Assembly (NCBI GenBank): GCA_025463925.1 | Contig: JAODBK010000015.1 | Span: forward strand, 1 to 64,000 | Reading direction: 5' to 3' | Length of the DNA: 64,000 nucleotides | Origin: Acidimicrobiales bacterium | GTDB lineage: Bacteria; Actinomycetota; Acidimicrobiia; Acidimicrobiales; AC-14 | Shown here: piece after piece, positions 2,919 to 14,603 of the stretch | Numbering within the stretch: position 1 is the first letter of the stretch | Layout of the letters: the number at the start of each line of letters is the position of its first letter | Notes under the pieces: model-generated | Told to the model about the DNA's origin: nothing | Seen by the model: only the letters and a program-made list of their open reading frames with translations | Databases searched by the model: none | Made by a program: the position numbers and the translations under genes

Positions 2919-3383
2919 TCAGACGCAGTCCCGGCACAGCTGGCGCTTGGCGTCGGCCAACTGGCTCGGGTGCTTGACGAGGAAGCACGACTGGCACACG
3001 AACTCGTCGGGCCGCTTGGGCTGGACCTTGGTCGGTCCCTCGGTGCGGTCCTCCACGTCGGGCTCGTCCTCGTCCTCCTCTTCGTCGTCCTCGACGACGA
3101 GACGATCCTTGAGGATGACGTCGAGGCTCGCCTCCACGTCGTCGGGGTCGTCCTCCTCGTCTTCGTCCTCGTCTTCCTCGTCCTCCTCGCCGGCGGCCTT
3201 GGCCTTGGGCGCCGCGCCCTCGACGGCCGGTTCCTCTTCCTCCTCGTCGACGATGGCGTCGTCGTCGAGCACGTCGTCGTCCTCGCCGAGGTCGTCCTCG
3301 GACAGGTCGTCGAGATCCGGGTCCTCGAGGTCCTCAGGCTCTTCGGACTCCTCTTCTTGGAAGTCCTCGTCTTCGTCAGCCAT
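2919..3383 (-). CDS. DUF4193 family acidic zinc-ribbon protein
   Basis: 154 residues. The C-terminal 35 residues (DEFVCQSCFLVKHPSQLA, then CRDC) match the DUF4193 zinc ribbon (CxxC...CxxC) that I recall from mycobacteria. The first 110 residues are dominated by Asp and Glu in long runs; mycobacterial relatives are about 100 residues in total, so this acidic arm is expanded. Function unknown; an acidic arm plus zinc ribbon would suit contact with a basic partner such as a nucleic-acid-binding protein. The ATG at 3383 is preceded by AGGAGG (3397-3402) at 13 bases. Confidence 0.75.
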   Translation of the reverse strand: MADEDEDFQEEESEEPEDLEDPDLDDLSEDDLGEDDDVLDDDAIVDEEEEEPAVEGAAPKAKAAGEEDEEDEDEDEEDDPDDVEASLDVILKDRLVVEDDEEEDEDEPDVEDRTEGPTKVQPKRPDEFVCQSCFLVKHPSQLADAKRQLCRDCV

Positions 3384-3419
3384 GGGTTGGGGCGGTCCTC
3401 CTGGGCACTCGGGCGCGGG

Positions 3420-3425
3420 AGCATA
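3420..3425 (-). promoter_or_regulatory. putative -10 element of the DUF4193 gene (TATGCT)
   Basis: TATGCT on the minus strand, about 36 bases before the ATG at 3383. A transcript from here would carry a short leader that includes the AGGAGG ribosome site. No convincing -35 is seen. Confidence 0.4.
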
Positions 3426-3440
3426 CACACCCCCACCGCG

Positions 3441-4055
3441 CTACTTGCCCGGAACCGTCGTCGTGGTCGGGGCGGTGGACGGCGACCCGCCAGCGGCTGC
3501 TTGGCTGAAGTTCAGGTCGGCCACGTCGTCCACCTTCCAGGCGCCGCCGACCTTCACCAGGCTCAGCTTGAGGTAGGCATCGGGCCGGCTCGTCCGGCCG
3601 CCGACTCCGGTGTGGTCGATCGACGCGATCACGATCGCGTGCGCGCTGTTGCCGTCGATCGACGACACGTAGATCTCCTGGACCTTGCCCGTCTGGGTCG
3701 CCTTGGTGCCCACGAGCAGCTCCTTCAATCCCGGGAACGAGCGCTCGTAGTCGTCACGGAACTTGCCGGCGGCGAGGGCGAGCACCGGCGCCTTGGTGTC
3801 GTCGATGCGGGCCGAGTCGTAACTGAGCAGTCGGGTCGTCAGCAGTGACGCCACGTCCTCGACGCGGTGCCGGTCGGCGTCGGCGCTCTGCCGGGCGTCG
3901 CGCTGGTTGACGGCGACGATCGACAGGACGATGACCGCGACGAAGAACACCGCGCACAGCGACGCCAGGCTGGTGACGAGCGCCCGGCTGGTCGCGACGG
4001 GCGATGTGACGGGCGCGTCCGGCGCATCCGGCGCTTCGACGTCGTTGCCGATCAC
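3441..4055 (-). CDS. Mce-associated membrane protein
   Basis: 204 residues. A short cytoplasmic N-terminus is followed by one membrane helix (about residues 25-50, SLASLCAVFFVAVIVLSIVA) and an extracytoplasmic domain with the NTF2/VirB8-like pattern of Mce-associated (Mam) proteins, e.g. SYDSARIDD and GGAWKVDDVADL. The C-terminus is a Ser/Thr/Pro tail. Mam proteins stabilise Mce complexes in mycobacteria. The GTG start overlaps the stop of the last mce gene (GTGA), so it is the last gene of the mce operon. Confidence 0.82.
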   Translation of the reverse strand: MIGNDVEAPDAPDAPVTSPVATSRALVTSLASLCAVFFVAVIVLSIVAVNQRDARQSADADRHRVEDVASLLTTRLLSYDSARIDDTKAPVLALAAGKFRDDYERSFPGLKELLVGTKATQTGKVQEIYVSSIDGNSAHAIVIASIDHTGVGGRTSRPDAYLKLSLVKVGGAWKVDDVADLNFSQAAAGGSPSTAPTTTTVPGK

Positions 4056-5272
4056 TCGGCCGAGCGTAGGTCAGCGGCACTCACGCGCAGCACCAGGGCG
4101 GCACCGACCATCGCCAGCGCGAGGGCCAGCAACGCGGTGCCGCCGGTCGCTGGCAGGCGGGTGCCGGTGGCAGCCAGGGGCACGCCGGCGGTGTAGTTGC
4201 CGACCGGCTTCAGCGTCGAGCTGCACGCGGCGACGACCGCGACCGGAGGCAGCTGCCGCGGCGGCACGAACTGCGGCGCCGGGTTGTACCGCGGGTTGGT
4301 GATCAGGCCGACGCGGATCCAGCGGCGGGCCGGCCCGCCGGCGGGGCCGGGCTCGATGTCGGACCCGGCGTCGAGCAGCTGGTCGAACGCCTGGGGCGCG
4401 ACGGTGAGCACCGTGCGGAGACCGGCCAGCCGCGCCGGCGTGGTCGTGACATCGGTGACGATGGTCAACGTCTTGAGGTCGCAGTCGAGGTCGCCCTTGT
4501 GGGCCGCGACCAGGTCGGCGGTGATCTGGAGCAGTTGCGAACCGCGTTCGAGCAAGAGATCGGTGTTGCCCTTGGCGTTCTTCAGCGAGTCGGCCAGGTT
4601 GCGCAGGTCGGTGATCGCCGACAGCGCGTCGCGGTGGTCGGTGATCGTGTGGGTCAGCCGGGTGTTGTTGCTGGCGAGCCGGTCGAGGGCCGCGGTGCGC
4701 TCGGCCAGTGTCTGGCTGATGCGGTCGCCGGCGTCGGTCAGCGCGCGAAAGCTGTCGGCCCGGCCGCTCAACCCGACGGCGGCCTCGTGCACGAGCGTCT
4801 GCACCGCATCGGGCGACACCGACGCGACGAGGCGGCCCGCCGACCGGAGCAGCTCGGAGAACTCCAGCGGCACGGTCGTCTTGTCCTCGGGCACCACGGT
4901 GCCGGCCCGGTAGAACGGCCCGCCGCCCGCGTACCCGGGCGGTGGCGTGAAGTCGACGAACTGCTCGCCGAGCACCGACTTGCGCAGCACGTTGGCGGTC
5001 GAGCCCTCGGGCACCTTCTTGTTGCGGTCGATTTTCAGGTGGATGCGCACCGCGCCGGGCACCCGGACGACGCGGTCGACCGATCCGTAGGTGACACCGA
5101 GGTAGTCGACCTCCGAGCCCGGCAGCAGCCCGACCGACGAGGCCACGTCGGCGTAGATGTGGTACGGGCGCGCGATCCGATCGACCGAGACGATGTTGTT
5201 CACCGCCCACCCGAGGAAGACCAGGCTCACCAGCACAAACGTCACCAGGTTGACGCGAGTTCTCCGGCTCAT
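4052..5272 (-). CDS. mceF: Mce/MlaD-domain protein, sixth of operon (MceF position), with C-terminal LPATG-like signal
   Basis: 406 residues. An N-terminal membrane helix (about 8-28) precedes the MlaD domain (about 35-115; VGLLPGSEVDYLGVTYGSV) and a long helical, coiled-coil region typical of Mce needle subunits. Unusually, the C-terminus reads LPATG (residues 373-377), then a roughly 17-residue hydrophobic stretch and a charged tail (RVSAADLRSAE). This is the layout of a sortase signal, though it could also be a plain second membrane anchor. The ATG at 5272 overlaps the upstream stop (ATGA). Predicted role: extracytoplasmic substrate-channel subunit of a lipid importer. Confidence 0.88.
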   Translation of the reverse strand: MSRRTRVNLVTFVLVSLVFLGWAVNNIVSVDRIARPYHIYADVASSVGLLPGSEVDYLGVTYGSVDRVVRVPGAVRIHLKIDRNKKVPEGSTANVLRKSVLGEQFVDFTPPPGYAGGGPFYRAGTVVPEDKTTVPLEFSELLRSAGRLVASVSPDAVQTLVHEAAVGLSGRADSFRALTDAGDRISQTLAERTAALDRLASNNTRLTHTITDHRDALSAITDLRNLADSLKNAKGNTDLLLERGSQLLQITADLVAAHKGDLDCDLKTLTIVTDVTTTPARLAGLRTVLTVAPQAFDQLLDAGSDIEPGPAGGPARRWIRVGLITNPRYNPAPQFVPPRQLPPVAVVAACSSTLKPVGNYTAGVPLAATGTRLPATGGTALLALALAMVGAALVLRVSAADLRSAE

Positions 5273-6225
5273 GGGCACCCCGCCGGGCTGCGCGTGTCCT
5301 GCGAGCAGGGAACCGCCCACATGTAGACCTGGGTGAAGTCGTCGGGGATCGCCTTCGGCAGCGCGTGCACGAACAGGTCGAGGAAGTCGACGAGGGTGCC
5401 GACCTGGCCGGTCTGCGTCGCCGCCACCGCGAGGATCGCGTCGACCTGCTTGATCTGCCGGTCGATGTCGTTGCGGTACTTGTCGAGCGCGTAGTCCTGC
5501 GCCCGGGCGAGGTGGCTGAGCGCGGCCAGCGCGTCGACCGCCTTCTGGCGGTCCTTCGCCAGCAACGTCGTCGTACCGGCCAGGTTGGTGAGCAGCGCCT
5601 TCACGTCACCGGCGCCGGCGGCGATGGTGCTCGTGGCCCGGTCGAGGTTGTCGATGGAGGTCGTGATCTGGCGCGACCGGCTGGCAAGGGTCGCCGAGAA
5701 GGACGAGATGTCGCTGATCAGCGCCTTGAGGTCATCGCCCCGCCCACCGAAGCCCTCGGCGCCGGTCTTCACGATCGACGCCAGGTCGGTGGAGCTCACC
5801 GCGCCCAGGAGGCTGACGGCCGAGTCGGCCACGAACTCGAGCTCGGGCGCCTCGCCGGTGTCCGCCGCGGGGATCACGTCGCCGTCGCGGAGGCACGGGC
5901 ACGCCGTCGGCGGGACGCCGTCCTTCGGGCGGAGCTCGATGAACTTCTCGCCGAGGAGCGCGGTCGTGCGCACGATGGCGCGGGTCTGCTTCGGCAACCG
6001 GACGCCCGACGCGACCCGCATGGTGACCTTGGCCTTGAAGTCCTTCGTCAGCTTGATCGAGCGGACCTGGCCGACCCGCACGTCGGCGACCTGGACGCCG
6101 TGGCGCGACTGGAGGTCGCCGACATCGTTGAAGGTCGCGGTCACCGAGTAGCCGCCACCACTGCAACCGGCGAGCGTCGTCGCGCCGACGGCGCACGCGA
6201 TCAGCACGAGCAGGACGCGCCTCAT
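5269..6225 (-). CDS. mceE: Mce/MlaD-domain lipoprotein (MceE position)
   Basis: 318 residues. The signal peptide ends in a lipobox LAGC with Cys21, so the mature protein should be lipid-anchored, as MceE/LprK proteins are. The MlaD domain follows (VTATFNDVGDLQSRHGVQVA, about 27-110; LLGEKFIEL strand) and then coiled-coil helices. A Cys pair (ACPC) lies in the insertion after the MlaD domain. ATG at 6225 overlaps the upstream stop; its own stop overlaps the MceF ATG, so the operon is translationally coupled. Confidence 0.9.
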   Translation of the reverse strand: MRRVLLVLIACAVGATTLAGCSGGGYSVTATFNDVGDLQSRHGVQVADVRVGQVRSIKLTKDFKAKVTMRVASGVRLPKQTRAIVRTTALLGEKFIELRPKDGVPPTACPCLRDGDVIPAADTGEAPELEFVADSAVSLLGAVSSTDLASIVKTGAEGFGGRGDDLKALISDISSFSATLASRSRQITTSIDNLDRATSTIAAGAGDVKALLTNLAGTTTLLAKDRQKAVDALAALSHLARAQDYALDKYRNDIDRQIKQVDAILAVAATQTGQVGTLVDFLDLFVHALPKAIPDDFTQVYMWAVPCSQDTRSPAGCP

Positions 6226-7538
6226 GCGAACCCCAGCAGGTGCCGCGCCGCCGAGCGGAGGAATCGGCCGACCGCGGCGAGCCCGCCGGCCACGTGGTCG
6301 GCGGTCGACGGCGCCGGCACGACGGCGCCGAGGGGCCGCCCGACCCCCCCACCTCCGAGCAGGCCGGTGATGGCGTCGAGGGGATTGGTCGTGCTGGTAC
6401 TGGCCGGCGACGGCCCGGCGAGCGGCGGCACCGTCACCGCCGGGACCGGGCCCAGCGGCCCGGCCGGGGCCGCAGGACCACCGGCGACCGCGGTCGCGAT
6501 CGGCGCCGCCGGGACGACCGGGTTCGTCGGCTGGCAGCTCACGTCGATCGGGAGGCAGACCAGGCCGCCGAGCGACAGGCCGGCGGCCTGCAGGGCCTGT
6601 GAGACCGTCGGGCTGAACTGGGTGCGCAGGTCGAGTCGGTGGTACTGCGGGCTGTAGGCGCTGAGCGTGCCCTGGGCCAGGATCGGGCCGGAGTCGAGCA
6701 GCTGCTCGACCGAGGTGATGTTGGCCCGCACCGACTGAAGCGTCCTCGTGAGCACCGTCAGGTCGCGGTCGAGCTGCACGCGATGCGTACTCACGAGGTC
6801 GAGCGCGCCGTTGGCGAAGCGGGCCAGGCCCTGGACCATGCCCTCGATGGCCGTGCGCTCGTCGGCGAGGAGGCGCGTCGCCTTGGCGAAGGAATCCATC
6901 ACCCGGCCGAGCTGCGCCTCGCGGGTCGCGAGCACGCCGGTGAACGCGTCGAACTGGTCGATGAGGTGACCCAGCTGCTGGTCCTTGTCGGCGATCGTCG
7001 ACACCAGTTGGCTCAAGTGGTCGACCGCGCCGTTGAGCGCGGGACCGTTGCCCTTGAGGTCGTCGGCCAGATTGGTGACGAGCCGACCGGTCGCGTTCGG
7101 GTCGAGGGTGTCGAGGAACTTCTTGAGCGCGGCCAAGGCCTCGTCGGGCTCGACCGGCACGCTGGTGCGGTCCTCGTTGATCACCGTGCCGGCCGGCGCG
7201 CGGGGCTGGCCGTTGGTCCACACCGGGAACAGCTGCACGTAGCGCTCGCCGATCAGCGACAGCGGCACGATCGTGGCGTGCACGTCGGCCGGCAGTGGCA
7301 CGCCCTTGTTGACGGCGATGACGACGCGCACGCGCGTCCCCTCCCCCACCACCTTCCTCACGTGGCCGGCATGGAGGCCGAGCACCCGCACGTCGTTCGA
7401 GGGGTACAGCGAGATCGTGCGCGGAAAGTACGCCGTCACGGTGTACGTGCCCCCATTGCCGCCGCCGACCACCGAGCACGACGCCAGCACACCGGCCGCG
7501 CACGCGGTCGCGGCGACGAGGGCGACGAGCCGCCTCAC
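6222..7538 (-). CDS. mceD: Mce/MlaD-domain lipoprotein (MceD position)
   Basis: 438 residues from GTG 7538, which overlaps the preceding stop (GTGA). The leader ends LASC with Cys21, a good lipobox, so this is a second predicted lipoprotein in the set; in classical mce operons only the fifth protein is one. MlaD domain at about 30-110 (TVTAYFPRTISLYPSNDVRV), then long helices to about residue 310. The C-terminal 120 residues are Pro/Ala/Gly-rich with a Cys pair (LVCLPIDVSC). Confidence 0.9.
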   Translation of the reverse strand: MRRLVALVAATACAAGVLASCSVVGGGNGGTYTVTAYFPRTISLYPSNDVRVLGLHAGHVRKVVGEGTRVRVVIAVNKGVPLPADVHATIVPLSLIGERYVQLFPVWTNGQPRAPAGTVINEDRTSVPVEPDEALAALKKFLDTLDPNATGRLVTNLADDLKGNGPALNGAVDHLSQLVSTIADKDQQLGHLIDQFDAFTGVLATREAQLGRVMDSFAKATRLLADERTAIEGMVQGLARFANGALDLVSTHRVQLDRDLTVLTRTLQSVRANITSVEQLLDSGPILAQGTLSAYSPQYHRLDLRTQFSPTVSQALQAAGLSLGGLVCLPIDVSCQPTNPVVPAAPIATAVAGGPAAPAGPLGPVPAVTVPPLAGPSPASTSTTNPLDAITGLLGGGGVGRPLGAVVPAPSTADHVAGGLAAVGRFLRSAARHLLGFA

Positions 7539-8557
7539 GGTGTGGCCGCCTTCGGGTGGAGGGCGTCGTTGATGATCTGGATCAGGTCGGGCCCGACGGA
7601 GCGGACGTAGATGTCCTGCCACGGGCCGTGCGACGCCGCCTTCGACAGGCCGAGCGCGCCGGCGCCGATCCACGACAGCGAACGGTCGATGATCGGCGTG
7701 CGGGCGTCGATCACCCCGACGGTGTTGTCGACCGTCGTCAGGATGGCGTCGAGCTGGGCCCGCTGCGTCGTGAGGATGTCACCCAACCGCTGGGCGACGG
7801 TGTTGGTGTCGTTGATGCCCTTCGCGATGTCGGCGCGGCGCCGGTCGACGAGGTCGAGGATCGCCTGGCTCTGGTCGAGCAGGCCGGCGAGCGTCTGGTC
7901 CTTGTCGGCCAGGAGCTTGGACAGGCCGTCGAGCCGGTCGAACAGCGACCGCAGCTGCGCTTCCCGGCTGTCGATCGCGGTCGACACCTTGTCGACGCCG
8001 GTGAGCAGCTCGGCCAGCTGGTCGTGCTTGCCCTGGGTGATGTCGGCCAGGTCCTTGATGAAGGTGTTGAGCTTCTCGGTGTCGGTGGCCTGGATCGACC
8101 GCGTCGCGATCTTGGTCAGGTCGAAGATGTCGAACGGCGTCTTGGTGCGGTCGGCCGGGATGATCCGCGCCGCCGTGGGGACGTTCTCGAGGTAGGGCTT
8201 CTTGGCGTTGGTGGTCAGGCGGATGAACCGTTGGCCCAGGAGCGTCTGCAGCGCGACCTCGGCCCGCACGTCGTCCTTGTTGACGTGGACACCGCGGTGC
8301 ACGAGGAACTTGATGACGACCTTGCCGGTGCTGCGGTCGGCGTGGATGCTCTCGACCCGCCCGGCCTTCACACCGGCGACCCGCACGTCGGCGCCCTTGC
8401 GGATCCCGGACGCGTCGGTGAACACGCCCTGCACGGTGTAGCCGTGCTCGAAGACGTGCAGGATGCCGACGGCGAACGCGATCCCGACGGCGAGACCGAG
8501 GAAGAGGATCGACCCGATGCCCACCGCGTAGGGGTTGCGGTCGCGGAAGCTCTTCAC
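7535..8557 (-). CDS. mceC: Mce/MlaD-domain protein (MceC position)
   Basis: 340 residues from GTG 8557 (GTGA overlap with the upstream stop). N-terminal membrane helix (about 12-33; SILFLGLAVGIAFAVGILHV), MlaD domain about 38-120 (GIRKGADVRVAGVKAGRV; LLGQRFIRL), then a helical region ending near the C-terminus without a long Pro-rich tail. Predicted extracytoplasmic subunit of the Mce channel. Confidence 0.9.
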   Translation of the reverse strand: MKSFRDRNPYAVGIGSILFLGLAVGIAFAVGILHVFEHGYTVQGVFTDASGIRKGADVRVAGVKAGRVESIHADRSTGKVVIKFLVHRGVHVNKDDVRAEVALQTLLGQRFIRLTTNAKKPYLENVPTAARIIPADRTKTPFDIFDLTKIATRSIQATDTEKLNTFIKDLADITQGKHDQLAELLTGVDKVSTAIDSREAQLRSLFDRLDGLSKLLADKDQTLAGLLDQSQAILDLVDRRRADIAKGINDTNTVAQRLGDILTTQRAQLDAILTTVDNTVGVIDARTPIIDRSLSWIGAGALGLSKAASHGPWQDIYVRSVGPDLIQIINDALHPKAATP

Positions 8558-9624
8558 CGCACCCCCCCGAGCAACTGGCGCAGGGCGCCGGGGCCGCTCA
8601 CCGGCGTGCCGCCGCCGGCCGGCGGCGCGGTGCTGCTGGCGGGCAGCGAGCCGGCACCCGTGATGCACGGGTTGCTCACGGTGACGGCGCCCGCGATCGA
8701 CCCGCACGGGATGACCTGGTTGAGCCACTCGCCGTAGCGGCTGGCGGTGAACAGCCGCTTCGCCGCCTCGTCGAGCCCGCCGAGCGCGTGGTCGAGCACC
8801 GGCAGCTTGACGGCGACCTCGTCGGTGAGCGCCCGCAGGTTGCCGATGATGCGGTCGATCTCGCCGCGGTTGTTGTCGAGCAGCGCGCCGAGGTTGGCCG
8901 AGAAGTCGCCCAGGTCGGTGACGGACTGGTCGATCACGGCGGTGTTGGCGCTGAACGTCTGCGCGATCTGCAGGAGGTTGTCGAGCACCACGCGGATCTG
9001 GGCGTCGCGGTCGGTGATGGCGCCGGTCACCGCGTCGAGGTTGTCGACCAGCCGCCCGATGGCCTGGTCGCGCGACCCCAGGCTCGATGCCACGACCGCC
9101 AGGTCGTCGAGCGTCTGGCGGAGCTTCTGCTGGTTGCCGTCGAGGGCGGCGACGATCGTGTCGAGGAAGGTGTTGACCTGCTTGGGGTCGATGGCCTGCA
9201 CGATCGGGCCGAGGCGGTTGAACAGCTCGCCGATGTCGACGACCGAGCGGGTCTTGGCGATGTGCGCGCCCTTGCCGAGCACCGTCGGTGCGGTCCCCGG
9301 ATAGAGGTAGACGTACCGCTGGCCGAGGAGGTTGCGCCACCGGATGGCGGCCGACGAGTCGCTCGGCACCTTGACGCTCGTCCGCACCTGGAACTGCACC
9401 AGCGCCCGGCCCTCGCGGATCCTGATGCCGGTGACCTTCCCGACCACCACCCCGGCGATCTTTACGTTGTCGTTCGGCAGCAGGCCGGTGACGTCGTCGA
9501 ACGACGCCGACATCCGGTAGTAGTGCTGCAGCGGCTGGTAGTTGCCGATCGTGAACGCCAGGTAGGCGGTGAACACCCCGCACACCGCGGCGAACGCGAT
9601 CAGCTTGAGGATCGTCCGGCGCAT
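8554..9624 (-). CDS. mceB: Mce/MlaD-domain protein (MceB position)
   Basis: 356 residues. The ATG at 9624 shares its A with the upstream TGA (TGATG). N-terminal membrane helix about 6-24, MlaD domain about 35-115 (GLLPNDNVKIAGVVVGKVTG; LLGQRYVYLYPG), then helical needle region. A disulfide-capable pair (IPCGS, NPCITG) lies near residues 315-330. The last residues (GPGALRQLLGGVR) resemble those of the next upstream Mce protein. Confidence 0.9.
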   Translation of the reverse strand: MRRTILKLIAFAAVCGVFTAYLAFTIGNYQPLQHYYRMSASFDDVTGLLPNDNVKIAGVVVGKVTGIRIREGRALVQFQVRTSVKVPSDSSAAIRWRNLLGQRYVYLYPGTAPTVLGKGAHIAKTRSVVDIGELFNRLGPIVQAIDPKQVNTFLDTIVAALDGNQQKLRQTLDDLAVVASSLGSRDQAIGRLVDNLDAVTGAITDRDAQIRVVLDNLLQIAQTFSANTAVIDQSVTDLGDFSANLGALLDNNRGEIDRIIGNLRALTDEVAVKLPVLDHALGGLDEAAKRLFTASRYGEWLNQVIPCGSIAGAVTVSNPCITGAGSLPASSTAPPAGGGTPVSGPGALRQLLGGVR

Positions 9625-10775
9625 CAGAGGACGCCCCCGATGAGGGACCGCAGCGCCGCTGGGCCGGTGAGGTGCAGCGGCAGCTGCGGGACCGGGAGCG
9701 TTGGCAGCCGCGATGGCCCGAGCGGCGCCGGCGCGGTGCTGGTGCCGGCCGACGTCGCCGCGGTGCCGGTGCACGTCGCCGGCGGCCGCCCGCACGGCGG
9801 GCCACCCCCGGCGACGAACTTGACCGCGGCCATCGTCGTGCCGGGACGGGACGGGTCGTCGAACGCGGTCGCCGCCTCGCCGAGGACCTGGAAGAACTCG
9901 GTCAGGCCGCGCACGAGCGGCGGCACCTGGCCGCGGAGGTCGTAGAGGAGCTGGATCGTCTTCGCGCCGTCGGTGTTGCTCTTGTCGAGGAACGGCCGGT
10001 TGGCGTCCAGCACGTCGGCGAGGTCCTGCGACAGCCGGGCCGCCTGGTCGAGGACCTGGGTGAGCTGGTCGCCGCGGGCGTTCAGATCGGGCAGGGCCTG
10101 GTTGAGGTCCTTGGCGCCGGCGACGAGGTCACCGGCCCGGTCGGCGAGGGCGCCCGACAGCTTGGCCAGGTCGTCCAGGAACTGCTGCGTGTCGGCGTCG
10201 TGCTTGGCGTTGATGTCGGCCGACAGGCGGAACGCCGCGATCTGGCGGTTGATCTCTGGGCCGAGCCCCTCGCCGCCCCGGGCCAGCGTGTCGATCAGCA
10301 CCGCCACCTCGTCCGGGTTCACCGCCTTCAGGATCGGCTCGAGGTCGGAGAGGATCTTCTCGAGCTCGAACCCTCCGGTGGTCTTCTTGATCTCGCTGTT
10401 GTCGCGGAAGAACGGGCCGGTGCGCTCGCCGGCGCCGGGGTCGATGTCGACGAACTTCTCGCCGAACAGCGTCTTGGCCCGAATGCTGGCCGCCGCGGTG
10501 GTCGGCACCTTCTCGGACTTGCGCAGCTGCATGCCGACGCGGGCGCGGCCGTCGAGCAGGCGGATGCTCGACACCTGACCGACGTTGACCCCGCGGATCT
10601 TCACGTCCGAGCCGACGACCAGGCCTTGTCCGGCCGCCGTGAACTTGCCGAAGAGGTGGTACTTCGGGGTGAGGCTGCCGTTGCCGGCGGCGACGCCGAT
10701 GCTCGCCACCCCGATGAACGTGGTGATCGCGATCAGCCCGGTGAGGATGCGGATGGTCCGCTCGGAGACGTGCAT
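9624..10775 (-). CDS. mceA: Mce/MlaD-domain protein, first of operon (MceA position)
   Basis: 383 residues, ATG start. N-terminal membrane helix about 8-30 (ILTGLIAITTFIGVASIGVA), MlaD domain about 38-118 (GLVVGSDVKIRGVNVGQVSS; LFGEKFVDIDPG), coiled-coil helices to about residue 320, then a Pro/Thr/Ala tail with two Cys (PPCGRPPATC) and the C-terminal motif GPAALRSLIGGVL that recurs in MceB. It starts 16 bases after the second YrbE permease. Confidence 0.9.
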   Translation of the reverse strand: MHVSERTIRILTGLIAITTFIGVASIGVAAGNGSLTPKYHLFGKFTAAGQGLVVGSDVKIRGVNVGQVSSIRLLDGRARVGMQLRKSEKVPTTAAASIRAKTLFGEKFVDIDPGAGERTGPFFRDNSEIKKTTGGFELEKILSDLEPILKAVNPDEVAVLIDTLARGGEGLGPEINRQIAAFRLSADINAKHDADTQQFLDDLAKLSGALADRAGDLVAGAKDLNQALPDLNARGDQLTQVLDQAARLSQDLADVLDANRPFLDKSNTDGAKTIQLLYDLRGQVPPLVRGLTEFFQVLGEAATAFDDPSRPGTTMAAVKFVAGGGPPCGRPPATCTGTAATSAGTSTAPAPLGPSRLPTLPVPQLPLHLTGPAALRSLIGGVL

Positions 10776-10791: not shown

Positions 10792-11634
10792 CTACCCCGC
10801 GACCCGCACGGAGTGGGCGCCGCCCCAGAACATCAACGACAGCAGCAGGTTGAGGATGACGACCGACACGATCGAGAGCCGGATGGCCCGGCCGACGGCC
10901 ACGCCCACGCCCTCGGGCCCGCCGGTGGCGTAGAAGCCGTAGTAGCAGTGGATGATCGACACCAGCACCGCGAACGCGCACGCCTTGCCGAGACTGAAGA
11001 GGATGTCGCGGAACGGCAGGTACAGGTGGAAGAAGTGGTTGTACTGCCCCGGTGACATCCCGAAGAACCTCGTCGTGATGATGTAGGTGGCGCCGAAGCT
11101 GGCGTACAGCGAGATCAGGTAGAGCGGGATGATCGCCAACAGCGCGGCGACGACCCGCGTGCACACCAGATAGACGAACGTCGGCACCGACATGACCTCG
11201 AGGGCGTCGATCTCGTCGGAGATCCGCATGGCGCCCAGCTCGGCGGTGAAGCCGGCACCCACCTGGGCCGCGAATGCGATGCCGGCGATGATCGGCGTGA
11301 TCTCGCGGGTGTTGGCCAGCGCGCCGATCAGCCCGGTGAAGCTCTGGGCGCCGATCTGCTCGAGGCCCTTGAAACCCTGGAGGCCGACCTCGGTGCCGGT
11401 GAAGAACGACATCGAGAAGATGACGAACACCATGCCGCCGCCCACGATCAGCGAGCCGGCGCCGATGGCGATGTCGCTCACGAGATTGAAGATGTCGGGC
11501 AGCCGTTTGGGCCGCAGCGCCGCCGGGATCTGCACCACGACCTTGAGGGCGAACGCGAGCTGGCGGCCGACCTCCTCGAGCCCGTTGGCCACGGCGTCGA
11601 ACGGCTTGCGGGCGGCGGTGAGCGGGCTGGCCAT
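10792..11634 (-). CDS. yrbEB: YrbE/MlaE-type ABC permease, second copy
   Basis: 280 residues with five or six membrane helices and the MlaE family pattern: the amphipathic N-terminal helix, the ATPase-contact segment MRISDEIDALEVMSVP, and the closing YYGFYATGGPEGVGVAVGRA. It forms the inner-membrane core of the Mce importer together with the other YrbE. The ATG at 11634 shares a base with the upstream stop (TGATG), so the two permeases are coupled. Confidence 0.94.
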   Translation of the reverse strand: MASPLTAARKPFDAVANGLEEVGRQLAFALKVVVQIPAALRPKRLPDIFNLVSDIAIGAGSLIVGGGMVFVIFSMSFFTGTEVGLQGFKGLEQIGAQSFTGLIGALANTREITPIIAGIAFAAQVGAGFTAELGAMRISDEIDALEVMSVPTFVYLVCTRVVAALLAIIPLYLISLYASFGATYIITTRFFGMSPGQYNHFFHLYLPFRDILFSLGKACAFAVLVSIIHCYYGFYATGGPEGVGVAVGRAIRLSIVSVVILNLLLSLMFWGGAHSVRVAG

Positions 11635-12419
11635 CAGAACTTCTGCGGGACGAGGGCGAAGTACAGCGTGGTCATGACGAAGTTGGCGAAGAAGATGAGG
11701 ATGAAGGTGATGACGACGCCCTGGTTGACGGCGTCGCCGACGCCCTTCGGGCCGCCCTTGGCGTACAGCCCCTTGTAGCAACTCACCATCGCGGCGATGA
11801 AGCCGAACACCGCCGACTTCACCAGCGCCGAGATCAGGTCCTGGATCTGCACCAGTGCGGTGAACCCGGAGAAGTAGGCGCCGGCGGTGACGTGCTGCAC
11901 GATGACGTTGAAGACGTAGCCGCCGGTGAGGCCGGCCACGCTGACCAACGAGACCAGCAGGACGGCGACCGTCGTCGCCGCGAGCAGCCGCGGCGCGACC
12001 AGCCGCTCGATCGGGTTGACCGCCATGACCTCCATGGCCGCGATCTCGTCGCGGATCTTGCGGGAGCCGAGGTCGGCGGTCATGGCCGACCCGCCGGCGC
12101 CCGCGATCAGCAACGCGGTCGCGACCGGCGCCGCCTCGCGGACGATGGCGAGCACCATGGCGGCGCCGGTGGCTGAGTCGGCCCCGAGGCCGCGGGCCAG
12201 CGACCCGACCTGCAGGGCGATGACCATCCCGAACGGGATGGAGATGAAGATCACCGGGATGCTGGTCACCTTGGCGATGAACCAGCATTGGGCCAGGTAC
12301 TCCTTGTACCAGACCCGGATCTTGGGCAGCGCCGTCAAGCCGTCGAGCGCGACGGCGAACATGTTCCCGGACTCACGGATCACGAAGGCCGGTTTGGCGA
12401 CGAGGGGGTTCGAGGCCAT
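11634..12419 (-). CDS. yrbEA: YrbE/MlaE-type ABC permease, first copy
   Basis: 261 residues, MlaE permease. It has the ATPase-contact segment SRKIRDEIAAMEVMAVNPIE and the conserved C-terminal CYKGLYAKGGPKGVGDAVNQ, and several hydrophobic helices. ATG at 12419, 15 bases after the ATPase stop. With its neighbour it should form the heterodimeric permease of the lipid importer. Confidence 0.94.
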   Translation of the reverse strand: MASNPLVAKPAFVIRESGNMFAVALDGLTALPKIRVWYKEYLAQCWFIAKVTSIPVIFISIPFGMVIALQVGSLARGLGADSATGAAMVLAIVREAAPVATALLIAGAGGSAMTADLGSRKIRDEIAAMEVMAVNPIERLVAPRLLAATTVAVLLVSLVSVAGLTGGYVFNVIVQHVTAGAYFSGFTALVQIQDLISALVKSAVFGFIAAMVSCYKGLYAKGGPKGVGDAVNQGVVITFILIFFANFVMTTLYFALVPQKF

Positions 12420-12434: not shown

Positions 12435-13262
12435 CTAGACCGTCATGATCTCGTCGCTGGCGTCGCCCAGCTCGACGGGGGCGTCGTCGTCCTGGGCCAT
12501 CTCGTCCATGCCGATCGGGCCCTGAGCCCGCCCCGAGAGGAACTGGCGGATGATGGGGTTGTCGGTCGTCTTCATCTCCTCCTTGCTGGCGAACTTCACC
12601 AGGCCGGAGCGGAAGAGCACGCCCATGTACTCGGCGACGCGCATCACCGAGGGGATGTTGTGGGTGATGATGAAGAAGGTGGCCCCGACCTCCCGCTGGA
12701 CGTTCACGACCAGCTCGTCGAGGTAGGCGACCCGCACCGGGTCGAGCCCCGAGTCGGGCTCGTCGAACAGCACGATCTCGGGCTCCATCACGAGCGCCCG
12801 GGCGAGGCCGGCGCGCTTCTTCATCCCGCCCGAGACCTCGCCCGGGGTCTTGCGCATGTGGTCGAGCAGGCCGACCAGGCCGGCCTTCTCGTTGACGATC
12901 TCGCGGACTTCTCGCTCGCTCTTGCGGGTGTGCTCGCGCAAGGGGAAGGCGATGTTGTCGTAGAGGTTCATCGACCCGAACAGCGCACCGTCCTGGAAGA
13001 GGACGCCGAACTTGCGGCGGACCCGGTAGAGGTCCTTCTCGCGCATCCCGACGATGTTCTCGCCGTCGACCCAGATCTCACCGGCGTCGGGCCGCAGCAG
13101 GCCGATGATGTTCTTCAGGAGCACCGACTTGCCCGTGCCCGACGGGCCCATGATGGCGGTGATCCGGCCCTTGGGGACGTCGAACGTGATGTCCTCGAGG
13201 ACGGTGTGGGAACCGAAGCGCTTCGTCACCCCCCGGAGCGAGATGATCGGCTCGAACTCCAG
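12435..13262 (-). CDS. mkl: Mkl/MlaF-type ABC transporter ATPase of the mce operon
   Basis: About 275 residues. Walker A GPSGTGKS, Q-loop LFQDGALF, signature VSGGMKKRAGLARAL, Walker B IVLFDEPDSGLDP and switch His ITHNI are all present, and the C-terminal tail follows MlaF relatives. It energises the YrbE permeases. No ATG, GTG or TTG lies in frame near the expected start. The best candidate is CTG at 13262, preceded at 8 bases by an AGGGGG-like ribosome site. The frame stays open further upstream but loses family resemblance there. The start remains uncertain. Confidence 0.92.
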   Translation of the reverse strand: MEFEPIISLRGVTKRFGSHTVLEDITFDVPKGRITAIMGPSGTGKSVLLKNIIGLLRPDAGEIWVDGENIVGMREKDLYRVRRKFGVLFQDGALFGSMNLYDNIAFPLREHTRKSEREVREIVNEKAGLVGLLDHMRKTPGEVSGGMKKRAGLARALVMEPEIVLFDEPDSGLDPVRVAYLDELVVNVQREVGATFFIITHNIPSVMRVAEYMGVLFRSGLVKFASKEEMKTTDNPIIRQFLSGRAQGPIGMDEMAQDDDAPVELGDASDEIMTV

Positions 13263-13304
13263 TGTCGGGGCCCCCTTCGGTCGCGGCGTCAGGTGAGAGC
13301 GCGG

Positions 13305-13333
13305 AGCGTAGCCGTCTGTTTCGACGATGTGAC
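13305..13333 (-). promoter_or_regulatory. putative promoter of the mce operon
   Basis: On the minus strand, GTCACA (13328-13333) and TACGCT (13305-13310) are 17 bases apart. A start about 7 bases on would give a leader of roughly 35 bases before the CTG at 13262. The -35 match is only 4 of 6. Confidence 0.4.
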
Positions 13334-13712
13334 GCTGGGCACCTGCCGGTGGGCACGTGCCCAACCGGCGGCCGGCCCAAACGGGGCGAAGGGATGGGGA
13401 GACCGTTGGGGCCGTCCGGTAGCCCGAGCCCGTGGACCGTGGTTTCCCACCGCCCGCGGCGCTCGGGTTATTGGGACGTTCTCTACTTGGTCTCCCCCTC
13501 CCCCACTGCCCGTTGTCCGCCCCCTGCGACCGCTTGCGGCCACAGGCCCACGACCAAGGGGACCGGGGCGATCGGGACGGCGTGAGTCTGTACGCACTCC
13601 GTTCACCTCGCAAGGGGACATTGCCCGGCGGTGAGCAGGGAGTTCGCGCGTCGGCGCTGGTCAGGCAGATGCAGAAAGGCGAACGAAAGGTGACGGCCCG
13701 GCGACGCGCCGC
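13334..13712. other. non-coding gap upstream of the mce operon
   Basis: About 380 bases with no frame that resembles a protein and no recognised RNA. It lies between the mce promoter region and the end of the LysM gene, and contains C-rich tracts (around 13493-13530) and short palindromes such as CCGCTTGCGG. It may hold upstream operator sequence for the mce operon. Confidence 0.4.
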
Positions 13713-13733: not shown

Positions 13734-14603
13734 CTACCCGAAGTGGGCTCGGTAGGCGAGGATGCCGGCGACGTAGTGCTTGGTGTCGAGGTAGATGTGG
13801 CCGGCCCGCACCGACGCGAGTCCCTGGTAGTACGACGCCAACGCCAGGTCGGCTTTGCCGCCGGTCGCGTCGAGCAGTGCCCGGATGAAGCGGGCGCTCA
13901 TGCGGATGTTGTCGTCGGCCTTCGTGGGGTCCAGCCGGGCGCCGTTCAACAGGACACTGTTGACGAAGACGACGGTGGCCGGCATGAGCTGGCCGATGCC
14001 GACCGCGCCCGTGCTCGAGACGACGGTGTTGCGCCAGCCCGACTCCCACCACGTCATCGCCTGGAAGAGGTCGGCCGGCACGCCGTACGCCTTCGCCCAG
14101 TGGACGAATCGCGGCCGGAGCCGCACACGGTCGGGTGACGACACGAGCAGGTTGGGCAGGCCCCGCCCGCCATTGGCGTAGCCGGTGATGACCGCGGGCG
14201 GCGGCAGTGACGCCGGCACCGTGAGCTTGGTGCCGATCACCACGACGTTCGGGTTCTCGATGCCGTTGGCGGCCGCGAGCGCCGCCACCGTGGTGCCGAA
14301 CCGGCCGGCGATGCTGCTCGCGGTGTCGCCCGGCCGCACGACGTAGGTGGTCGCCGCCGCCGGCACCGTGCCGGCCGACGGGAGCCGGAGGACGGCGCCG
14401 ATCACGACGTGGTCGGGATCACGGATGCCGTTCAGTGCGGCCACCGCGCTCACGGTGGTGCCGGCGCGGGCGGCGATCGCCGAGAGGGTGTCGCCGCGGC
14501 GGACCGTCACCGTGCGGCCGGACGCGCCGGGCCGCCCCATGAAACCGGCAGTGCCGATCAGGGTGACGACGACGAGTCCGGCGATGCTGCGAACGGCGCG
14601 CAC
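13734..14603 (-). CDS. secreted lytic transglycosylase with two LysM repeats
   Basis: 289 residues. N-terminal hydrophobic signal (about 5-22), two LysM repeats (about 30-75, VRRGDTLSAIAARAGTT; and 85-130, VRPGDTASSIAGRFGTT), then an SLT-type transglycosylase domain with WWESGWRN (catalytic Glu) and STGAVGIGQLMPAT. LysM binds peptidoglycan and the SLT domain cleaves it, so this is a cell-wall remodelling enzyme outside the membrane. GTG start at 14603 with GGAGGG just upstream. Confidence 0.92.
   Translation of the reverse strand: MRAVRSIAGLVVVTLIGTAGFMGRPGASGRTVTVRRGDTLSAIAARAGTTVSAVAALNGIRDPDHVVIGAVLRLPSAGTVPAAATTYVVRPGDTASSIAGRFGTTVAALAAANGIENPNVVVIGTKLTVPASLPPPAVITGYANGGRGLPNLLVSSPDRVRLRPRFVHWAKAYGVPADLFQAMTWWESGWRNTVVSSTGAVGIGQLMPATVVFVNSVLLNGARLDPTKADDNIRMSARFIRALLDATGGKADLALASYYQGLASVRAGHIYLDTKHYVAGILAYRAHFG

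Follow-up and report, generated by a model that had tools for sequence, protein, structure and literature searches.

The closest solved relative of the protein described here belongs to the Mce1 transporter. In the available part of the preprint on this complex (PMC9882608), portal, needle and ring together reach about 225 Å into the periplasm, and the outer end is a portal made up of the C-termini of all six subunits, to which unstructured ends are added. As regards sortases, the accessible portion of PMC5148588 reports that class E enzymes take LAXTG, and in the corresponding portion of PMC13251363, which deals with Actinoplanes, the authors infer LPVTG for their class E sortase and apply a rule of two consecutive basic residues to the charged end. 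Since class E sortases are linked to both LAXTG and LPVTG, as far as these sources go, the occurrence of LP and LA forms within one orthologue family is plausible. Mce transporters and sortase anchoring are each known. Judged by titles and the beginnings of abstracts, none of the open-licence papers listed links a Mce protein with sortase anchoring.

The window, that is the whole stretch of 64,000 nucleotides analysed here, carries on its minus strand an mce operon with the gene order YrbE-YrbE-MceABCDEF. Its last Mce gene (4052..5272, minus) is of the mceF type and encodes a protein of 406 amino acids, which occupies the sixth Mce position (F) downstream of two MlaE permeases. Translation of positions 4052-5272 in the plus direction does not yield a gene and was discarded; the coding strand is minus. 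The protein is assigned to the Mce family by TIGR00996 (160.1 bits, above the cut-off of 140.5) and contains an MCE (MlaD) domain at residues 36-111 (4940..5167, minus; Pfam PF02470, 52.5 bits, cut-off 25.1); Mce4_CUP1 scores 30.0 bits, which is below its cut-off of 32.6. Among solved structures, Mce1F (8fed_F) is the closest in sequence, with profile positions 36-294 matching chain positions 40-291 at 128 bits. A membrane helix at about residues 9-27 (5192..5248, minus) is apparent as a hydrophobic stretch in the sequence and as helix 3-27 in the predicted model, and a Mce needle region is present besides this helix and the MCE domain. The predicted structure models have mean pLDDT values of 62.9 and 61.4, with high confidence confined to the MCE domain and the end helices. 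Two cysteines, Cys264 (4481..4483, minus) and Cys350 (4223..4225, minus), are invariant in 19 aligned MceF proteins of Acidimicrobiia and Streptosporangiales. They are possible disulfide partners, and Cys350 is the last invariant residue ahead of a variable tail.

The remaining Mce genes, mceE to mceA (5269..10775, minus), encode proteins none of which has a sorting-type end; MceD and MceE start with the lipobox-like sequences LASC and LAGC, respectively, as read from the sequence. They are joined by two genes for MlaE/YrbE-type permeases (10792..12419, minus; Pfam PF02405, 207.8 and 233.4 bits) and by an ORF whose translation reveals ABC-ATPase motifs (12435..13613, minus) and which is probably MceG, the ATPase, extended too far at its N-terminus. 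At the other side, a gene for a Mce-associated membrane protein-like product (3441..4055, minus; NF051431, Rv0361 C-terminal, 20.7 bits, below the cut-off of 37) overlaps the mceF stop. The surroundings of the operon include, downstream, a highly acidic protein that matches DUF4193 (2919-3428, minus; 30.2 bits, cut-off 25) and an adjoining ORF (13734-14603, minus), which by eye reads as two LysM repeats plus a lytic transglycosylase-type domain.

A preceding sequence-only reading of the window had pointed to LPATG at residues 373-377 of the last Mce protein, followed by a hydrophobic stretch and a charged end, and all of these elements are indeed there. LPATG, the putative sortase recognition site (4142..4156, minus), is read from the sequence, as is a second sorting-like pentapeptide, LAATG, at residues 366-370 (4163..4177, minus). 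The two stand in tandem, two residues apart, so that the tail reads LAATGTR-LPATG (4142-4177, minus). Both are located in the variable linker after Cys350, which is modelled at a pLDDT below 50. The 29 residues after LPATG comprise a hydrophobic core (best 15-mer mean 2.78, Kyte-Doolittle) and then the charged end RVSAADLRSAE; the sequence and the predicted model, in which residues 378-400 form a helix, place the hydrophobic segment at residues 379-395 (4088..4138, minus), leaving the 11 residues 396-406 (4055..4087, minus) as the charged end. Thus, the window's MceF has a pentapeptide and then a C-terminal hydrophobic segment, which is the arrangement of a sorting signal. Its charged end contains two R/K and two D/E residues but only single R, and therefore lacks the two consecutive basic residues of the published rule. 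This rule is not absolute, as two LPxTG proteins of the same genome (L010, L012) lack such a pair as well; among the ten motif-bearing MceF proteins of Acidimicrobiia introduced below, three have it. The curated LPXTG model TIGR01167 did not match the window's MceF at E<=1 in the genome search or at E<=10 in the protein scan, and two other MceF proteins of the Acidimicrobiia set (A1) match it weakly (best E 0.98). Moreover, L[AP]xTG arises in 3.2% of shuffles of the protein's own 52-residue tail. The window's tail alone is weak evidence, and it is the orthologues that make the case for a candidate sorting signal.

Absence of sortases from the genome had been named as an observation that would speak against anchoring, but this objection falls away: three sortases are encoded in the genome (4.08 Mb, 119 contigs), all of them on other contigs. 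The NCBIfam class E model scores best for all three, and one exceeds its cut-off. One sortase gene (L002) and the gene of an LPRTG-tailed protein (L014) are a few hundred bases apart on the same strand of contig C76, at about 19.5-20.4 kb. At least eight further LPxTG-tailed proteins are encoded in the genome (L010, L011, L012, L013, L014, L017, L019 and L023, among 15 loci). These proteins have 26-39 residues after the motif, and the 29 residues in MceF are therefore not unusual, contrary to the earlier view that its tail is longer than normal. That the tail is also less basic holds in comparison with most of the eight proteins, L012 being equally weak. In the order search, sortases were present in all 16 orthologue-bearing genomes, with or without the motif, and likewise in 8/8 further genomes. 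Sortase presence does not predict the motif, because genomes without the motif have sortases too, and the correlation of motif and sortase was set aside as uninformative. A DNA pattern of LPxTG codons proved too unspecific for use: the genome yielded 52 hits in the forward and 94 in the reverse direction, the control 49 and 27.

To judge recurrence, we compared 18 MceF proteins of Acidimicrobiia (the window's own, L049, L056 and L061-L075), scoring a hydrophobic end as a 17-mer mean above 1.6. The hydrophobic end is kept in 18/18, and L[P/A]xTG precedes it in ten of them, a count inflated by kinship, as near-copies (L068/L069, L074/L075, L061/L064) are included and the ten are not independent events. 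Shuffling of the 18 sequences gave an expectation of 0.33 and a maximum of 4 in 20,000. The motif takes the forms LPATGG, LATTGG (in three proteins of a sister genus), LAATGG, LPATGS, LPVTGR and LPNTGG, and it recurs although the linker ahead of it varies among the orthologues. It is present in all four of the closest orthologue rows of the window's MceF. On a tree of 25 rows the motif label requires at least 5 changes, as compared to an average of 8.0 for shuffled labels, 13 of 500 of which were as low; that is, the motif is clustered yet patchy, and within one genus (g63) it occurs in one member and is absent from two. Outside the 18 stand four more distant F-like ORFs of the same order (L145=L154, L146, L158, L180), which have a hydrophobic C-terminal end and no motif; counting them, the fraction becomes 10/22. 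A protein from the second operon of a sister-genus genome (L028), which by its coordinates looks like a last Mce protein, is devoid of both features in its last 70 residues. The class-wide A1 search, from which the best four candidates per genome were taken, yielded matches in at least 5 of 395 genomes and is not a census. As to conservation of the motif, on which the earlier reading had made its proposal depend, L[P/A]xTG in 10/18 proteins here and in 8/11 of a second class stands on one side; on the other are the patchy tree and the 8/18 that have a hydrophobic end without the motif.

The second class emerged from a phylum-wide search, in which at least 27 of 396 genomes matched at E<=1e-50 among the best four candidates per genome, again no census. 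MceF-type proteins outside Acidimicrobiia were found to end in RPLPATGGG... and DDLATTGTD..., and in the follow-up in that order 36 genomes were searched with each protein and 8 matched each time. L[P/A]xTG is present in the last 60 residues of 8 of the 11 distinct complete ORFs of this class, which are related to each other; two shortened ORFs (L195, L196) were kept outside this count. Shuffles led to 0.18 expected occurrences with a maximum of 3. The hydrophobic 17-mer mean of the eight motif bearers is 1.48-2.65 in seven and 1.46 in the eighth, and by eye a run of two or more R ends 7/8 of them. Among the ORFs without the motif, L190 has the hydrophobic end only, and L205 and L207 have neither feature. 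TIGR01167 scores 13.7 bits for one protein of this class (L191), its cut-off being 15.9. In two motif-bearing operons (L182, L183) the motif is found in the product of the sixth and last Mce ORF, and by eye no other Mce protein there has such an end; sortases are encoded in both genomes, and also in G645, whose MceF lacks the motif. Two genomes of another class encode a last Mce protein (L179, L186:2041-3723; L181, L185:5511-7181) whose C-terminal part is an M23 peptidase domain (Pfam PF01551; 108.8 and 114.3 bits, cut-off 28.7), possibly another link of the F subunit to peptidoglycan.

As controls, we inspected the A-E subunits and MceF proteins of other groups. Motif and hydrophobic C-terminal end do not coincide in any of the 58 complete A-E ORFs from the same Acidimicrobiia loci (motif alone 2, hydrophobic end alone 2) nor in any of the 327 A-E ORFs from 65 Streptosporangiales loci (motif alone 19, hydrophobic end alone 5). 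Nearly all of the 19 represent a stretch of the LATTGG/LAGTGG type that is conserved close to the C-terminus in MceC-type proteins (e.g. L107, L115). L[AP]xTG alone is therefore insufficient to call a sorting signal, because MceC-type proteins carry it without the hydrophobic end. In the MceF proteins of Streptosporangiales (L076-L140), the hydrophobic C-terminal end is found in 60/65 and L[P/A]xTG in 0/65; the linkers of the 60 span 46-105 residues, with a median of 67.5. Plasmid-borne MceF proteins of a Mycolicibacterium and a Rhodococcus have neither a C-terminal hydrophobic segment nor the motif, and the last Mce ORFs of Streptomyces and Nocardia plasmid loci have no LPxTG in their last 60 residues. 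The MceF proteins of Mycolicibacterium, Streptomyces and Rhodococcus (L147, L148, L151) share another kind of C-terminal end, with a Gly-Pro-Asp-Gly stretch, a Trp near the end and, by eye, no hydrophobic segment.

The length of the linker between Cys350 and the hydrophobic segment can be set against the reach of the needle. A fully stretched polypeptide chain measures 3.5 Å per residue. The match of residues 36-294 to Mce1F suggests that the needle of the window's MceF is similar in length to that of Mce1. Its linker of 29 residues would extend to about 100 Å when stretched, as compared to a needle of ~225 Å, and a permanent membrane anchor would hardly reach. Thus, in a Mce1-like needle, as modelled on this one solved complex, the helix is unlikely to remain embedded in the membrane, and its removal by cleavage, as of a sorting signal, would be expected. 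The linkers of Streptosporangiales, in contrast, would be about long enough to lead back to the membrane. The geometry argument is nevertheless weak, because it fits neither the motif-less MceF proteins of Acidimicrobiia, whose linkers are equally short (25-40, one Acidimicrobiia linker having 60), nor the second class, in which the linkers of five measured motif bearers span 60-103 residues. Linker length was not adopted as a general criterion for telling sorting from anchoring: it mainly splits Acidimicrobiia from Streptosporangiales and fails for these two groups.

We consider it probable that MceF is a class E sortase substrate, which is cut after Thr and joined to peptidoglycan and thereby fastens the needle's outer portal to the cell wall. 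In this view, MceF would initially span the membrane at both ends, by an N-terminal anchor and by a C-terminal sorting signal; export and N-terminal anchoring would come first, followed by insertion of the C-terminal helix. Sortase would then cut LPATG, and perhaps LAATG also, between Thr and Gly, with the hydrophobic stub staying in the membrane and the new C-terminus becoming joined to lipid II and hence to peptidoglycan. As the C-termini of the Mce1 subunits form the outer portal, such a linkage of MceF would tie the outer end of the needle to the wall and hold the importer's outer end in a cell which we take to have no mycolate membrane. The sequences establish the gene itself, the motif and its recurrence, its restriction to F in the loci examined, and the sortases; cleavage, wall linkage, orientation and benefit we infer.

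The main rival is the simple second helix that the sequence-only reading had already offered as an alternative: the C-terminal segment would be a plain permanent second anchor, MceF would loop out and back, and the pentapeptide would be a leftover or irrelevant. The tails of Streptosporangiales correspond to this picture, combining a hydrophobic end in 60/65 and the motif in 0/65 with linkers of 46-105 residues, and within Acidimicrobiia, too, the hydrophobic end is universal but the motif is not. The weakly basic end of the window's MceF, the patchy distribution of the motif and the missing TIGR01167 call likewise speak against sorting. Against a mere anchor stands the recurrence of L[P/A]xTG, which occupies the same position in both classes much more often than in shuffles and despite a variable linker, and the short linker is at odds with a needle of about 225 Å. 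We therefore regard the permanent anchor as unlikely, albeit as the alternative to be taken most seriously. For the sortase-anchoring reading as first put forward, the recurrent motif and the sortases are in its favour, and the 8/18 proteins without the motif as well as sortases in motif-less genomes count against it, so that it is supported in part.

Removal of the helix could also have another outcome: sortase or another protease may cut the tail, with the protein being released or joined to a protein partner and the needle tip freed from the membrane. Indeed, the geometry calls for removal of the helix rather than for wall linkage, and the motif is carried by the one subunit whose C-terminal end is hydrophobic. 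But class E sortases of known function attach proteins to the wall, as described in the available parts of PMC5148588 and PMC13251363, and this outcome appears quite improbable to us. That LPATG is a chance feature of a tail rich in Ala, Pro, Thr and Gly is hardly credible any more. The 3.2% of own-tail shuffles, the silence of TIGR01167 and the occurrence of L[AP]xTG without a hydrophobic end in 2/58 and 19/327 A-E ORFs would be compatible with it, but the orthologues largely refute it, since the motif is found in 10/18 and 8/11 proteins of two classes, each time before a hydrophobic end, and in all four of the closest orthologue rows.

Should MceF indeed be sorted to the wall, the importer's portal would dock to the wall instead of an outer membrane, and sortase would take part in the assembly of a lipid importer of the ABC type. 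In the loci examined the sorting signal is confined to F and sits at the end which in Mce1 forms the portal. It thus offers a concrete and testable answer to the question of what the long Mce needle docks to in actinobacteria: the wall may hold the importer's outer tip in place where an outer membrane of the mycobacterial type is believed to be lacking. More tentatively, and with somewhat more doubt than confidence, one may picture MceF being stitched by sortase to peptidoglycan in mycolate-free Actinomycetota at large, a trait retained or acquired repeatedly in two or more classes, with M23 or return-helix ends taking its place elsewhere.

Compared with known systems, the window's MceF resembles Mce1F (PDB 8fed/8fee/8fef; PMC9882608, as far as available) in being the last of six Mce subunits and in having an N-terminal helix, an MCE domain and a helical needle. 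It appears to differ in its end: the accessible description of Mce1 in PMC9882608 has the C-termini as portal plus unstructured ends, whereas the window's MceF has a motif and a hydrophobic tail. The MceF proteins of Streptosporangiales are the same subunit, share Cys264 and Cys350 and have the hydrophobic C-terminal end in 60/65 cases, but none of the 65 has L[P/A]xTG and their linker is about twice as long. With the class E substrates, as described in the parts of the sources available, namely the chaplins of Streptomyces coelicolor and CwpA, CwpB and SspA of Actinoplanes missouriensis, MceF has in common L[A/P]xTG, a hydrophobic segment and a charged C-terminal end, as well as class E-like sortases encoded in the same genome. 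According to the same partial descriptions, chaplins, CwpA, CwpB and SspA are surface or morphogenesis proteins, whereas MceF is a transporter subunit that brings along an extra N-terminal helix and a weakly basic end.
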